From the NCBI GenBank assembly GCA_022432975.1, contig CM039514.1:9593519-9657518 (forward strand): a stretch of DNA of 64,000 nucleotides, in the 5' to 3' direction. Within the stretch, counting starts at the first letter, position 1; every line of letters starts with the position of its first letter. The stretch comes from Begonia masoniana. Lineage: Eukaryota; Streptophyta; Magnoliopsida; Cucurbitales; Begoniaceae. The notes under the pieces are model-generated. The model did no database searches and had not been told where the DNA came from. It was given only the letters and a program-made list of their open reading frames with translations. This document shows positions 8,678 through 55,336 of this stretch, piece by piece. Both the position numbers and the translations under genes were made by a program.

Positions 8678-8812
8678 GGCCGATCGATCGGCTCATTTGG
8701 CGAACAATCGGCTAAATGTGGCAATCGATCGGCGAAGCACAGTAATTTTGTTTCAAACAGAGAAGTTGTCGATCGATCGACTAAATGTGGCGATCGATCG
8801 GCGAAGCACAAT
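8678..8812. repeat. CGATCGATCG palindrome cluster, Athila 5' of Cassandra
   Basis: Three or four copies of a bipartite palindromic unit, CGATCGATCGGCT-AAATGTGG-CGATCGATCGGC. They are separated by AGCACAGTAATTTTGTTT-type linkers. The array is split by the Cassandra insertion and continues at 10426-10475 and 10562-10572. The same unit style recurs at 13985-14240 and, in an unrelated LTR, at 43080-43272. Confidence 0.8.
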
Positions 8813-8835
8813 AATTTTGTTTAAAACAGAGAAGT

Positions 8836-9225
8836 TGTAACGACCCATTTTTCCAGCAAGATATTGTCCGCTCTGGGGATTGGGCCTCCCCTCACGGCTT
8901 TGTTTGGCGAGAACTTCCCAGAAGGTCACCCAACCTGAAATTGCTCTCGCCGAAGCACTTTTAACTTCGGAGTTCTTATGGGATCAGTTGTCAATTGTGC
9001 TCCAAAACGCGTCTTACTATCTTGGGAGGGTCTCCTTACATATGTTTCATTTCCATATATTTCCCCAAGCGATGTGGGATTGTGACAATACCCTCTTTAC
9101 GACCCAGGATTCGCCTATATTAGAGTCTGGGATTCGCCTACACTCGGCTTAGGTCCCGAGGTTTGCCCCAAATCTCGAGCTATGCCCCTCAGTCGTACTC
9201 ATACGTGCATATTCGGGTCATCACA
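8836..9225 (-). mobile_element. Cassandra LTR with 5S rRNA-like core
   Basis: On the minus strand it runs from TGTGATGACCCG to GGGTCGTTACA. A 5S rRNA-like core lies at about 8903-8990. It includes AGAACTCCGAAGTTAAAAGT, GCTTCGGCGAGAG and GGTTGGGTGACC, which correspond to the A-box, intermediate and C-box control regions of 5S genes. It is slightly longer than the plus-strand copies (390 versus 377 bp). Confidence 0.85.
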
Positions 9226-9290
9226 ATCACCTCCCCTCGGGGGACCAACGTCCTCGTTGGCCACATTTTCAGTTGGGTACAGGCTCTGAT

Positions 9291-9380
9291 ACCATTTCTC
9301 GATTTGTGCGTGTCATCCTTGCGCAGAGGCCATGCTAATCTTCTCTGTATCATTCCAATTTTATCGGATGTCCCGAAGGA
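9291..9380 (-). ncRNA. Near-full-length U6 snRNA-derived sequence fused to Cassandra PBS
   Basis: On the minus strand this reads CTTCGGGACATCCGATAAAA, continues through the ACAGAGA box, the AGATTAGCATGG region and CGCAAGGATGACACGCA, and ends GAGAAATGGT. It matches plant U6 from about nucleotide 2 to about 96, with one missing G in the 5' stem-loop and two C-to-T changes. No U6 promoter (USE or TATA) or terminal T run is present. Upstream is a Cassandra LTR start, and downstream the AAATGGT of U6 merges into the tRNA-Met primer-binding site TGGTATCAGAGCC. It is a captured copy, not a functional U6 gene. Confidence 0.93.
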
Positions 9381-9522
9381 TTAGGTCCCGAGGTTTGCCC
9401 CACAACTCGAGGTTTTCCCTGCAGTCATACTCATACGTGCACATTCGGGTCATCACAATCACCCTCCCTATGGGGCCCAACATCCTCGTTGGCCACATTT
9501 CCAGTTGAGTACAGGCTTTGAT

Positions 9523-9579
9523 ACCATTTCTCAATTTGTGCATGTCATCCTTGTGCAGGGGCCATGCTACTCTTCTCTG
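9523..9579 (-). ncRNA. Truncated U6 snRNA-derived sequence, second copy
   Basis: This is the 3' 57 nt of U6, from CAGAGAAGA to GAGAAATGGT on the minus strand, again fused to a Cassandra PBS (TGGTATCAAAGCC). Relative to U6 its changes include three losses at CpG sites (GCGC to GCAC, CACG to CATG, TCGA to TTGA), as expected from methylated-cytosine decay, plus one T-to-G. The 5' end is cut at the inversion point with the plus-strand PPT at 9580. Confidence 0.88.
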
Positions 9580-9595
9580 CAGGGGGGTGGGTGAT

Positions 9596-9972
9596 TGTAA
9601 TGACCCAGATGTGTAAGTATGTGTACGATGGCTGCACAAACCGGAACCCGGATGACAGTACGTCAGTACGGGCGAACCGAAAGGTGACAGGTCATAAAAA
9701 AGGGGTCGTCACAATCCCACATCGCTTAGGGAAGCATGTGGAAATGAAACATAAGTAAAGAGACCCTCCCAAGATAGCAAGACGCGATTTGGAGCACAAT
9801 TGGCAACGGATCCCATAAGAACTCCGAAGTTAAAAGTGCTTCGGCGAGAGTAGTACCAGGTTGGGTGACCGACTGGGAAGTCCTCGCCAAACAAAGCCGT
9901 GAGAGGAGGATATTGGGCTACGGCCCAATCCCCAGAGCGGACAATATCTTGCTGAAAAAAAGGGTCGTTACA
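9596..9972 (+). mobile_element. Cassandra LTR (5' of plus-strand pair)
   Basis: A 377-bp LTR runs from TGTAATGACCC to GGTCGTTACA, with the 5S-like core at about 9802-9886 (ACTCCGAAGTTAAAAGTGCT, GCGAGAGTAGTACCAGG, TTGGGTGACC). It is preceded by a purine tract (CAGGGGGGTGGGTGAT) and followed by AA and the PBS TGGTATCAGAGCC (9975-9987). The open frame on the opposite strand (9709-10338) is a by-product of the repeat. Confidence 0.9.
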
Positions 9973-10043
9973 AATGGTATCAGAGCCTGTAACCAACCGG
10001 AAATGTGGCCAACGGGGACGTTGGGCCCCTGAAGGGGGGTGAT

Positions 10044-10420
10044 TGTGATGACCCAGATGTGTAAGTATGTGTACGATGGCTGCACGAACCGAAACCCGGA
10101 TGGCGGTACATCTGCGTGGGCGAACCGGAAGGTGACGGGTCATAAAAAGGGGGTCGTCACAATCCCACATCGCTTGGGAAAGTATGTGGAAATGAAACAT
10201 ATGTAAAGAGACCCTCCCAAGATAGTAAGACGCGTTTTGGAGCACAATTGGCAACGGATTCCATAAGAACTCCGAAGTTAAAAGTGCTTCGGCGAGAGTA
10301 GTACCAGGTTGGGTGACCGACTGGGAAGTCCTCGCCAAACAAAGCCGTGAGGGGAGGATATTGGGTTACGGCCCAATCCCCAGAGCGGACAATATCTTGC
10401 TAGGAAAATGGGTCGTTACA
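10044..10420 (+). mobile_element. Cassandra LTR (3' of plus-strand pair)
   Basis: A 377-bp partner of 9596-9972, starting TGTGATGACCC directly after the PPT AAGGGGGGTGAT and ending GGTCGTTACA. The 5S-like core is at about 10250-10335. The two LTRs differ at scattered positions, mostly CpG, so this is not a very recent copy. The 3' TSD GAAGT follows immediately. Confidence 0.9.
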
Positions 10421-11037
10421 GAAGTTATCGATCGATCGGCTAAATATGGCGATCGATCGGCGCTTCTGAGTTTAATTCCAGGCGATTGATCGCGTCTCAC
10501 ACTTACCCCTTTTCGCTATTAAAACCCTACCCTTTGAAATACAAATCCCTTTCTCACCTATGATCGATCGGCGCCCACATACCATATTGTCTAATGCCGT
10601 CTTCGGTGGCACACCACCGGGTTCTCTCACGACAAAAGGTAAACTTCTCCTGCTGAACCCTTTCTCTTTCTAGCAATTGGAAGGTTCCGAATTTTCGAAC
10701 TTTATCTTCCCTGCTCTAGTTTCGGTCATACTTTGACAGTTTTTCTTTAGAGTGTTAACTCTCTTCATGCTGTGATCATGAATTTGACCATTGATTTTTC
10801 ATTTTGATGGTGGTTATGAGTATAGTCCAGTAGTGGGTCAATGTGTATTCTGCATGCCCACCAGGTGTTTGATTAAATGTCTGAGTCAAGTGGAACTTCC
10901 AATTGTGCATTGTGTTTACTCCAAACTTCTTATTTGCTTCTCTCATGTGCTTAAATGTCGTGCGTGTGTATGCTGGGTTGGCTGTGTCTGCTTTGTGTTC
11001 GCAGTAACAGGTTATCTAAATCGTGTGCCATTCCAAG

Positions 11038-18016: not shown

Positions 18017-18913
18017 TTATAACTGTTTAGCCAATGAGGCAACTTGTAGTGTTAAAGCTTTTATAGCCTCAACCTCTGGGGTACCAGTTGTACGCTTCAT
18101 AATTGTGCGTTCCACAGGGCATGGGTCATTATTAAGTGCCAATTCCTCCAATAGATCATATGCTGCTTCTTCAGTTTTTCTCATTAAGACGCCACTTGCA
18201 GCTGCATTCACCAGAGTTTTAGTAGATTATGATAGTCCCACATAGAAAGTTTGAATATGCATCCATTTTGGTAGGCCATGGTTGGGGCATTTTCTCAACA
18301 TATCCTTGAATCTCGCCCATGCCTCATATAGAGTTTCCCCATCGAATTGACTGAAATTTATTATATCGTTTCAGAGCTTAGCAGTCTTCTCAAAGGGGAA
18401 GAACTTAGAAAGTAACTTCTTGCATAATTCTTCCCATGTAGTAATACAATTTGTTGGCAGAGAGTTAAGTCAATTCTTTGCATGGTCCCGTAATGAGAAT
18501 GGAAATAAACGCAGTCTTACTGCATCATCCGCCACGTTGTGGAATCTGAAAGTATTGCATACTTTCAAAAAATTTGCAATGTGATTTTTGGGGTCCTCAG
18601 AAAGTAGTCCACTGAACTGAGACTGTTGAATCATATGCAAGATGTCTAGCTTAATTTCAAAATTTGCTGCAATAACCGGCTTCCAAATAGCTGAATGAAT
18701 CCCGGATAGAATAGGTATAACGTAGTCCAGCAAGGTCCGGTTCTCAGCATTATCTTCCACATTATCTCCCATGATGGCACGCGCTTGTTGAATAACTTCT
18801 CTTCTCTCTCTACGATTTTGTCGACACATACGCTCGATCTCAAGATTAAGCATGAGAAGATTAGCGTCTCCTTCTTTACGCATACACCTGGAAGTAACAC
18901 AAAAGTTAAACAA
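18017..18913 (-). pseudogene. Inverted Athila gag, N-terminal (capsid) half
   Basis: On the minus strand the capsid part is recognisable: ENRTLLDYVIPILSGIHSAI, DILHMIQQSQFSGLLSEDPK, IANFLKVCNTFRFHNVADDA and VRLRLFPFSLRDHAK (18470-18800). A frameshifted region (18212-18470) and the block at 18017-18211 (SGVLMRKTEEAAYDLLEELA) follow. This is the normal Gag order for Athila-type elements. Stops at 18238-18480 inactivate it. Confidence 0.85.
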
Positions 18914-19806: not shown

Positions 19807-19906
19807 NNNNNNNNNNNNNNNNNNNNNNNNNNNNNNNNNNNNNNNNNNNNNNNNNNNNNNNNNNNNNNNNNNNNNNNNNNNNNNNNNNNNNNNNNNNNNN
19901 NNNNNN
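19807..19906. other. Assembly gap (100 N)
   Basis: Exactly 100 N preceded by a run of T. The round number suggests a gap of unknown size. Open frames crossing it are meaningless. Confidence 1.
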
Positions 19907-53267: not shown

Positions 53268-55336
53268 TGTGATGACCCGACTTGACACGTATGTGGTGGA
53301 ACCACCCATGCTCCGCGGATCCCAGAGGGTTGGGCCGGAGGATTCGGTCGTTGAAAGTGGGGTCGTCGCAATACCACATCGCTTGGGAAAGTACATGGAA
53401 ATGAAACATATGTAAGAGATCCCTCCCAAGATAGCAAGACGCGTTTTGGAGTACGATTGGCGACGGATCCTATAAGAACTCCGAAGTTAAAAGTGCTTCG
53501 GCGAGAGCAATTCCAGGTTGGGTGACCTTCCGGGAAGTTCTCGCCAAACAAAGCCGTGAGGGGAGGATATTGGGCTGCGACCCAATCCCTAGAACGGACA
53601 ATATCTTGCTGGAAAAAGGGGTCGTTACAAATGGTATCAGAGCCTGTACCCAACCGGAAATGTGGCCAACGAGGACGTTGGGCCCCAAAGGGGGGGTGAT
53701 TGTGATGACCCGACTTAACACGTATGTGGTGGAACCACCCATGCTCCGCGGATCCCAGAGGGTTGGACCGGAGGGTTCAACGAAAACTCCGCGGATCCCA
53801 GAGGGTTGGACCGGAGTTACCTATGGCCTCTTCCGATTTCAGTTATTCGGGAGATGGAATTCTGAAGTTCAAAGATAGGTGGTATGTTCCGAGAGACAAA
53901 GAGTACGAAAGAACATCTTGTCGGAAGCCCCACTCATCTCTTTCTCCGTGCATCCTGGTAGCAAAAAAATGTATCAAAACTGTGTGATGACCCGACTTGA
54001 CACGTATGTGGTGGAACCACCCATGCTCGCGGATCCTCAGAGGAGTATGTGCCCGGTTGGGGTCGGAGTATGGGTTAAAACTCCGCGGATCCCAGAGGGT
54101 TGGGCCGGAGGGCTCAACGAAAACTCCGCGGATCCCAGAGGGTTGGGCCGGAGGATTCGGTCGTTGAAAGTGGGGTCGTCGCAATACCACATCGCTTGGG
54201 AAAGTACATGGAAATGAAACATATGTAAGAGATCCCTCCCCAAGATAGCAAGACGCGTTTTGGAGTACGATTGGCGACGGATCCTATAAGAACTCCGAAG
54301 TTAAAGTGCTTCGAGAGCAATTCCAGGTGGGTGACCTTCCGGGAAGTTCTCGCCAAACAAAGCCGTGAGGGGAGGATATTGGGCTGCGACCAATCCCTAG
54401 AACGGACAATATCTTGCTGGAAAAATGGGTCGTTACAAATGGTATCAGAGCCTGTACCCAACCGGAAATGTGGCCAACGAGGACGTTGGGCCCCAAAGGG
54501 GGGGTGATGTGAGACCCGACTTAACACGTATGTGGTGGAACCACCCATGCTCCGCGGATCCCCACATCGCTTGGGAAAGTACATGGAAATGAAACATATG
54601 TAAGAGATCCCTCCCAAGATAGCAAGACGCGTTTTGGAGTACGATTGGCGACGGATCCTATAAGAACTCCGAAGTTAAAAGTACGTCGGCGAGAGCAATT
54701 CCAGGTTGGGTGACCTTCCGGGAAGTTCTCGCCAAACAAAGCCGTGAGGGGAGGATATTGGGCTGCGACCCAATCCCTAGAACGGACAATATCTTGCTGG
54801 AAAAAGGGGTCGTTACAAATGGTATCAGAGCCTGTACCCAACCGGAAATGTGGCCAACGAGGACGTTGGGCCCCAAAGGGGGGGTGATTGTGATGACCCG
54901 ACTTAACACGTATGTGGTGGAACCACCCATGCTCCGCGGATCCCAGAGGGTTGGACCGGAGGGTTCAACGAAAACTCCGCGGATCCCAGAGGGTTGGACC
55001 GGAGGGTTCAACGAAAACTCCGTGGATCCCAGAGGGTTGGGCTGGAGGATTCGGTCTTTGAAAGTGGGGTCATCACAATACCACATCGCTTGGGGAAGTA
55101 CATGGAAATGAAACATATGTAAGAGATCCCTCCCAAGATAGCAAGATGCTTTTTGGAGTACGATTGGCGACGGATCCTATAAGAACTCCGAAGTTAAAAG
55201 TACGTCGGCGAGAGCAATTCCAGGTTGGGTGACCTTCCAGGAAGTTCTCGCCAAACAAAGCCGTGAGAGGAGGATATTGGGCTGCGGCCCAATCCCTAGA
55301 GCGGACAATATCTTGCTGGGAACTGGGGTCGTTACA
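53268..55336 (+). mobile_element. Cassandra TRIM multimer in Tekay integrase, TSD ACTTG
   Basis: Five LTRs (53268-53629, 53701-53816 truncated, 53983-54437, 54508-54817, 54889-55336) alternate with internal stretches carrying the PBS TGGTATCAGAGCC and PPT AAAGGGGGGGTGAT. Outer ends are TGTGATGACCC and GTCGTTACA, with a perfect TSD ACTTG (53263-53267 and 55337-55341). Complete LTRs hold a 5S-like core (for example about 53459-53543). A 44-45-bp repeat with CCGCGGATCCCAGAGGGTTG varies from one to three or more copies per LTR and is partly deleted in the fourth. 53817-53982 repeats the flanking pol sequence (see findings). The many open frames here are repeat translations. Confidence 0.9.
53817..53982 (+). 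repeat. Duplicated piece of flanking integrase inside the Cassandra array
   Basis: 166 bp (TTACCTATGGCCTCTTCCGA through AAAAAAATGTATCAAAACTG) repeat 53100-53267 of the host element with scattered single-base indels (GAGTACG for GAGTTACG, GCCCCACTCATCTC for GCCCACTCATCTTC, AAAACTG for AAAACTTG). The junction to the next LTR repeats the original insertion border. Confidence 0.9.

Follow-up and report, generated by a model that had tools for sequence, protein, structure and literature searches.

U6 snRNA copies joined to the primer-binding site of Cassandra elements in a composite insertion of Begonia masoniana

Results

A composite Cassandra insertion

The window, which is the whole stretch of 64,000 nucleotides analysed here, holds a composite of Cassandra elements at 8836-10420. 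It is one 1585-bp insertion, with the 5-bp duplication GAAGT on either side (8831-8835 and 10421-10425). When the flanks are joined, the empty site aligns without gaps across the joint to the adjacent, paralogous minisatellite unit at 8700-8790. On each side, at 8836 and at 10420, the composite terminates in an LTR U5 end that reads GGGTCGTTACA outwards.

The left part lies on the minus strand. It starts with a full Cassandra LTR (8836-9225), recognised by its ends and its 5S region (8896-9008, Rfam, 42.4 bits), whose U5 end forms the left border of the composite. Then come a second internal domain and PPT (9226-9290), with a PBS at 9282-9294 overlapping the end of a long U6 copy (9291-9380), the initial 77 bp (U3) of a Cassandra LTR, upstream of that copy and in sense (9381-9457), the first internal domain (9458-9522) with its PBS (9514-9526) and PPT, and a 5'-truncated U6 copy (9523-9579). 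Read along the minus strand, the truncated U6 (nt 35-91) comes first, followed by PBS, internal domain and PPT; then stand the 77 bp of LTR, the long U6 (nt 2-91) and again PBS, internal domain and PPT, before the full 5S-bearing LTR that runs to 8836. The original prediction gave this order and its coordinates correctly as far as it went, including the 77 bp before the full-length U6, and it overlooked the plus-strand element and the fact that everything had been inserted as one piece.

At 9580-9595, a head-to-head joint connects the truncated U6 to the PPT side of a plus-strand Cassandra, with the common letters CTG (by eye). This plus-strand element (9596-10420) consists of a 5' LTR (9596-9972, 5S region 9788-9892), an internal domain (9973-10043) with PBS (9975-9987) and PPT, and a 3' LTR (10044-10420, 5S 10234-10346) whose U5 end closes the composite on the right; LTR ends and Rfam matches define these parts.

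The features of Cassandra are present: a 5S-derived region in each of the three full LTRs, the PBS TGGTATCAGAGCC, which we take to be of the initiator tRNA-Met type, a short non-coding internal domain, and a PPT. Cassandra elements have LTRs in direct repeat, with one U3 and one U5 outer end; the plus-strand half alone has two direct LTRs, whereas the whole composite has two U5 ends. Identity between the two plus-strand LTRs is 93.1% (K2P 0.0735), and the minus-strand LTR shares 81.5% and 83.2% identity with them; thus, the two halves probably derive from different Cassandra copies.

Elsewhere in the window, a second Cassandra array lies at 53268-55336 (+), with the duplication ACTTG and, by eye, segments of its surroundings in repeated form, and a snoR71 C/D-box snoRNA at 18273-18379 (+, 59.7 bits).

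The U6 copies and the host U6 genes

Both U6 segments of the original prediction were confirmed by Rfam RF00026 on the minus strand: 9281-9387 with 84.4 bits and 9513-9582 with 49.1 bits, for a gathering score of 44. Local alignment to an Arabidopsis-type U6 sequence scored 81 and 48 at these copies and at most 16 in the tiles of the reversed window (n=492), which excludes a chance likeness.

A U6 family search of the assembly gave at least 31 matches, 48 of 68142 first-look candidates having been scored. Among the U6 matches listed are seven host U6 genes (L048-L054) of 106.7 bits, identical over their first 101 nt. Against these genes, the long copy covers nt 2-91 with two changes, close to the three predicted, and the short copy covers nt 35-91 with four changes, three of them at CpG. 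Both meet the Cassandra PBS at AAATGGT, as predicted.

The joint recurs in the assembly

We searched the 795-Mb assembly to which the window belongs (C13:9593519-9657518). With 9200-9620 as the query, the DNA search gave at least 79 matches, many spanning only query positions 92-243 and stopping at the U6 start; these have the same LTR start without U6 at that place. For the joint itself, we used AAATCGAGAAATGGTATCAGAGCC, allowing 3 mismatches at most, and found 72 matches, against 0 with the reversed pattern. Twelve of them are U6-PBS joints, in nine loci (window, L004, L005, L006, L007, L018, L020, L025 and L027) plus L003. In the remaining 60, the matched letters are not U6-like, and the two examined further (L028 and L030) had no Cassandra or U6 match. 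Since the search tolerates 3 mismatches, older or shorter U6 pieces are missed.

L003 (C13:4.456 Mb) matched the whole query at 95%, with 96% identity to the window locus over 4990 bp. Its left side is altered and it shares the right flank with the window; it is therefore a duplicated locus, not a second transposition. On the left side of L003, near position 7668 of L010, sequence resembling a Ty3-type PBS and leader replaces the left part of the composite (by eye).

The other eight loci are different constructions. Beside U6, L005 (C12:26.25 Mb) has an inverted 40-bp U5 end, L007 (C3:20.41 Mb) an inverted Cassandra arm, and L025 (C13:34.02 Mb) a whole inverted Cassandra extending about 15 nt beyond its PBS. 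L006 (C2:44.26 Mb) and L018 (C2:36.78 Mb) present the inverted U5 end of a Ty3-type LTR, L020 (C7:42.78 Mb) a Ty3-type LTR in sense, and L004 (C2:45.22 Mb) other repeats. Thus, outside the window, L003 and L027, the partner of U6 is inverted Cassandra cDNA, a Ty3-type LTR or other sequence. L027 (C4:4.45 Mb) is an ordinary two-LTR element in which 40 nt of U6 replace the last ~20 bp of the 5' LTR; positions 1-357 of the 377 in this LTR remain, and with them the 5S part, before the U6 piece.

The U6 3' end is nt 91 (AAATGGT) in all nine loci. The 5' ends vary: nt 2 in the window, 11 in L004, 13 in L005, 12 in L006, 5 in L007, 54 in L018, 47 in L020, 53 in L025 and 52 in L027, besides nt 35 in the second copy of the window. 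They form two groups, nt 1-13 and nt 47-54, presumably the 5' stem-loop and the stretch before the internal stem-loop, with nt 35 apart. Uniform draws were as tight in 375 of 100000 cases for the nine ends and in 3934 of 100000 when nt 35 was included, so the clustering is modest and suggestive only.

Exact 5-bp duplications flank six of the nine loci: the window, L005 (GAGCC), L006 (GTTGT), L018 (GGTAG, with a truncated LTR as the right end and the right border picked after seeing the match), L025 (TACTG) and L027 (GATTT). In L007, four of five letters agree (CTATC/CTATT). L004 and L020 showed no target-site duplication, and no left border was readable there when sought. Inverted U5 ends stand at both borders in five of the nine (window, L005, L006, L007 and L025). 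In the six loci with an exact duplication, the window among them, a U6 copy and element cDNA lie within one target-site duplication, as in a U6 retropseudogene made by the reverse transcriptase of an LTR element.

The U6-PBS loci are few, nine versus 4334 exact ordinary Cassandra joints plus 358 Cassandra PBS sites where AAATGGT is preceded by a base other than C (about 0.2%). Twenty of these 358 were read, picked non-randomly from 100: nine with G outside the known U6 loci and 11 with A or T. Ordinary Cassandra LTRs account, by eye, for 11 (ten with a point change, one with an extra A); of the others, one is a Cassandra LTR with a deletion, two are Ty3-like U5 ends joined to the Cassandra PBS (L087 and L096), one is a Ty3 leader (L095), two are other LTR ends (L086 and L089), and three have no assignment (L082, L083 and L091).

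The U6-PBS joint thus reflects a recurrent process, with varied U6 5' ends, partners and sites.

Two further U6 copies came up. At L055 1500-1615 (C12:30.78 Mb), a complete U6 with a 3' tail lies between two head-to-head Cassandra arrays, at the LTR starts. This tenth, different case shows that U6 can also be captured through the extreme 3' end of the RNA, with no PBS involved, and it counts against the account favoured below. The copy at L059 1514-1600 (C15:34.66 Mb, U6 nt 9-94), in sequence with gatcgatcg repeats, was set aside, with no match to the Ty3 copy and no Cassandra beyond U6.

Discussion

U6 as a probable bridge during reverse transcription

We consider it likely that the composite in the window is a single integrated Cassandra cDNA for which U6 snRNA served as a bridge template. 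Minus-strand Cassandra cDNA would have reached the PBS, leaving a 3' end in ...ACCATTT (or ...ACCA). Instead of pairing with the PBS of plus-strand strong-stop DNA, this end would have annealed to the AAAUGGU close to the 3' terminus of U6 RNA, and reverse transcriptase would have copied U6 toward its 5' end. The joint is observed; the pairing and the replication step we infer. The enzyme, or later repair, would then have shifted to another strand through 0-4 common letters. In several loci, the new strand would have been a second minus-strand cDNA, giving a head-to-head molecule with U5 at each outer end. Integrase inserted the molecule, as the 5-bp duplications show. In the window, U6 would have been captured twice in one molecule, or once and then duplicated. 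L027 shows a case where copying returned to an LTR in sense after U6.

The order of the pieces bears on the step involved. In eight of the nine loci, what follows U6 is the PBS, then the internal domain and then a Cassandra LTR that lacks U6 and, in L018, is truncated; therefore, minus-strand synthesis had run from the LTR through to the PBS. A different possibility is that U6 RNA itself was the template on which the initiator tRNA primed, through the four letters UGGU, and that a minus-strand strong-stop DNA of U6 replaced R-U5. The joint starts exactly at the tRNA-complementary TGGT, and in the window the long U6 has U3 immediately upstream, and the unit that begins with the short copy ends in U3-U6, as this priming predicts. 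However, a strong-stop also makes the 3' LTR end, so U6 would be expected there, and in the eight loci other than the window the 3'-side Cassandra LTR lacks U6 (it is complete in seven and truncated in L018). This fits the second strand transfer better, and we regard tRNA priming on U6 as unlikely. As for the window itself, the long U6 fits the strand-transfer account; the short one, followed by the internal domain and U3-U6, fits other models too.

More than one template per molecule is indicated by two loci. The inverted 40-nt U5 stub of L005 is identical (40/40) to the LTR end of L004 and needs 4 gap columns against its own LTR end, and in L025 the two LTR arms show 12 substitutions and 16 gap columns between them, around an unchanged U6. 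Moreover, these letters served on an RNA other than U6 as well: L095 joins the leader of a Ty3 family (83.8% over 130 bp) to the Cassandra PBS at an AAAATGGT in the leader. Whether seven letters paired or just the four of the PBS, the joint would read the same, since its sequence fits both.

Regarding the source of U6, the copies of L004, L005 and L025 are identical to the host genes over 81, 79 and 39 nt, and the other captured copies show 1 to 4 changes. By eye, no U6-gene flank was seen beside the captured copies, as expected from an RNA template. U6 is enriched in retroviral particles, and its presence is reported for RSV, MLV and HIV-1, according to passages of PMC3185662 and a table of PMC4997597.

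The pieces could also have met as genomic DNA, if already inserted Cassandra copies recombined with U6 pseudogenes or were end-joined to them. Recombination has been reported for Cassandra arrays (passages of PMC7215508), and the second joints have just 0-4 common letters (by eye). We hold this to be very improbable: all nine loci have the PBS after AAATGGT and never the U6 3' sequence, no flank of a U6 gene accompanies them by eye, and six of nine composites lie within one exact 5-bp duplication, with a clean empty site in the window. An assembly artefact is scarcely credible. Repeats are difficult to assemble, but the two copies of the window carry private changes, a 94-96% identical second locus lies on the same contig, eight further loci lie elsewhere, target-site duplications are present, and the sole gap in the window is a run of 100 N at 19807-19906.

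A Cassandra family driven by U6 is not supported

The original prediction combined two ideas. One was a template switch of reverse transcriptase at the seven letters AAATGGT, common to U6 and to the border of LTR and PBS; with the same joint in nine loci, it is well supported. The other was a Cassandra form whose LTRs carry U6 in place of 5S, and it is not supported. The genome search for the U6-PBS joint gave 12 matches, in the nine loci and L003, and among these the only further copy with U6 directly after an LTR start was the duplicated locus L003. The segments are U6, and their joint with the PBS exists elsewhere.

In its full form, this second idea is a U6-bearing TRIM: one founding switch would have made LTRs of U3-U6, and the element would then have transposed as such. 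The order U6-PBS-internal-PPT-U3-U6-PBS in the window is what a full replication cycle would leave. Between the two U6 copies, 5 of 57 positions are different, which is not detectably above the divergence of the plus-strand LTRs (26 of 377, Fisher p 0.58); the copies could thus have been twins at insertion. Against these points, the PBS-internal-U3 parts of the two units differ at 19 of 145 positions, more than that LTR pair (p 0.035). U6 directly after an LTR start occurs only in the window and in L003, a single further copy duplicated together with its right flank. Moreover, wherever borders could be read, in seven loci, LTR sequence forms the outer ends and U6 never does. Integrase requires CA at the LTR end, whereas a U6-LTR would end in GA. 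We find such an element rather improbable.

The promoter question points in the same direction. Plant U6 promoters lie upstream, and the U6 body has no promoter. By eye, no U6-type box as in the host genes was seen in the 77 bp upstream of the long copy. The plant snRNA upstream element is RTCCCACATCG; its exact form is absent before the captured U6 copies and, in the window, present only in the three 5S-bearing LTRs. Members of the TRIMp3 group, Helenus (tRNA) and Ajax (5S), are likewise short LTR elements with a pol III small-RNA sequence, as described in passages of PMC10886601. However, the RNA sequence there is a presumed promoter in the LTRs of a family, whereas here each locus has a one-off U6 without an internal promoter. 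A TRIMp3 element with U6 as promoter would bear a pol III small-RNA promoter in both LTRs; here there is only the U6 body, with its 3' end replaced by the PBS. Besides, such a family would consist of independent copies with the same LTR, and we found one duplicated locus and eight loci of other construction. No spread U6-bearing Cassandra family was found in the 795-Mb assembly. The best reading is that the U6 pieces are captured bridges or passengers, not a replacement promoter.

A separate observation concerns the 5S-bearing LTRs of the window, which carry ATCCCACATCG at 9714-9724 (+), 10162-10172 (+) and 9070-9080 (-). By eye, it resembles the box upstream of the seven host U6 genes, CCACATCG in four of them and CCACATTG in three, and it agrees with the plant snRNA upstream element RTCCCACATCG. 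Thus, Cassandra LTRs may have an snRNA-type promoter box in addition to 5S.

A candidate helper of the Ty3/gypsy type

The partners of U6 lead to another element family. A Ty3/gypsy-type LTR is the U6 partner in L006, L018 and L020, with its U5 end in the first two. In L006, the U6 bridge links Cassandra to a Ty3-type U5 end within one 5-bp duplication. One copy of this type, L079, encodes Retrotrans_gag, Ty3_capsid, RVP_2 and RVT_1, and reads GGGTCGTTACA-GTTA-TGGTATCAGAGCC, that is, a U5 end and a PBS as in Cassandra. The left end of L006 is 95.6% identical to L079 over 45 bp. The left part of L018 has no L079 match and shares 73% over 234 bp with an LTR at 42.5-43.5 kb of the window. That LTR in turn shares 75% identity with L100, the LTR lying upstream of L079; L020 shares 70% with L100 over 979 bp. 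In the assembly, the Ty3-type LTR end followed by TGGTA occurs exactly 104 times, against 0 for the control. At C1:7351141-7351176, with overlapping sites at 7351141 and 7351155, a Ty3-type U5 end runs into the Cassandra PBS.

Against the helper idea, BLAST found no similarity between the Cassandra LTR and the L100 LTR, and the PBS alone is not specific because other LTR types in the assembly carry TGGTATCAGAGCC too. The joint of the Ty3 leader seen in L095 was tried as a second recurrent class; it gave 75 matches, many of which end in or near ACAAATGG like ordinary LTRs, and 2 in the reversed control, and we claim no recurrence for it.

From these sequences, the Ty3/gypsy-type family would be a candidate helper of Cassandra, not a proven one, with which Cassandra may have shared particles. 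A broader reading, that U6 was packaged with Cassandra and that the bridges record RNAs sharing a particle, naming the Ty3/gypsy family of L079 as helper, is tentative; we give it somewhat less than an even chance.

Relation to known elements

With its 5S-bearing LTRs, PBS, short internal domain and PPT, the composite resembles known Cassandra TRIMs, for which passages of PMC7215508 also describe tandem forms with multiple LTRs. It differs in the U6 fused at the PBS and in the head-to-head elements with two U5 ends. In a term search, snRNA was not mentioned in the main texts of PMC7215508, PMC10853983 and PMC4717578, nor in PMC10886601, and 'inverted' and 'template switch' were absent from the main text of PMC10853983. 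A literature search, judged from titles and the beginnings of abstracts, gave no report of U6 in Cassandra. The U6-PBS joint gave 0 matches in viral collections and 1 in prokaryote collections; the latter is bacterial, without Rfam U6 and not Cassandra-like by eye, and we attribute it to chance.

Also related are the vertebrate chimeric pseudogenes of LINE and U6, where U6 RNA is captured by template switching of reverse transcriptase (passages of PMC4476161); the enzyme there is of the non-LTR type, whereas here the element has LTRs and the joint lies at the PBS. Human snRNA copies associated with LTR retrotransposons were described by Giles et al. 2004, as cited in passages of PMC4476161 and PMC4997597. 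By the description in PMC4476161, they are few and ancient, and some perhaps formed with the LTR insertion. Compared with these copies, as the citing papers describe them, we report nine loci in one plant with one common joint. Capture of U6 by reverse transcription is thus already known; what the present case adds is an unusually exact and recurrent joint and a lead to the Cassandra helper.

Conclusions

Cassandra is widespread in plants, and the element that replicates it is unknown (passages of Kalendar 2020, PMC7215508, and Kojima 2024, PMC10886601). The recurrent, exact U6 joint most likely dates from reverse transcription, and it therefore points to the faulty step, the strand transfer at the PBS. 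It also points to a cellular RNA at hand, to two RNAs copied together and to a larger element copied along with them. Finally, the U6 joints suggest how head-to-head Cassandra composites can originate and yet integrate: two U5 ends are kept.
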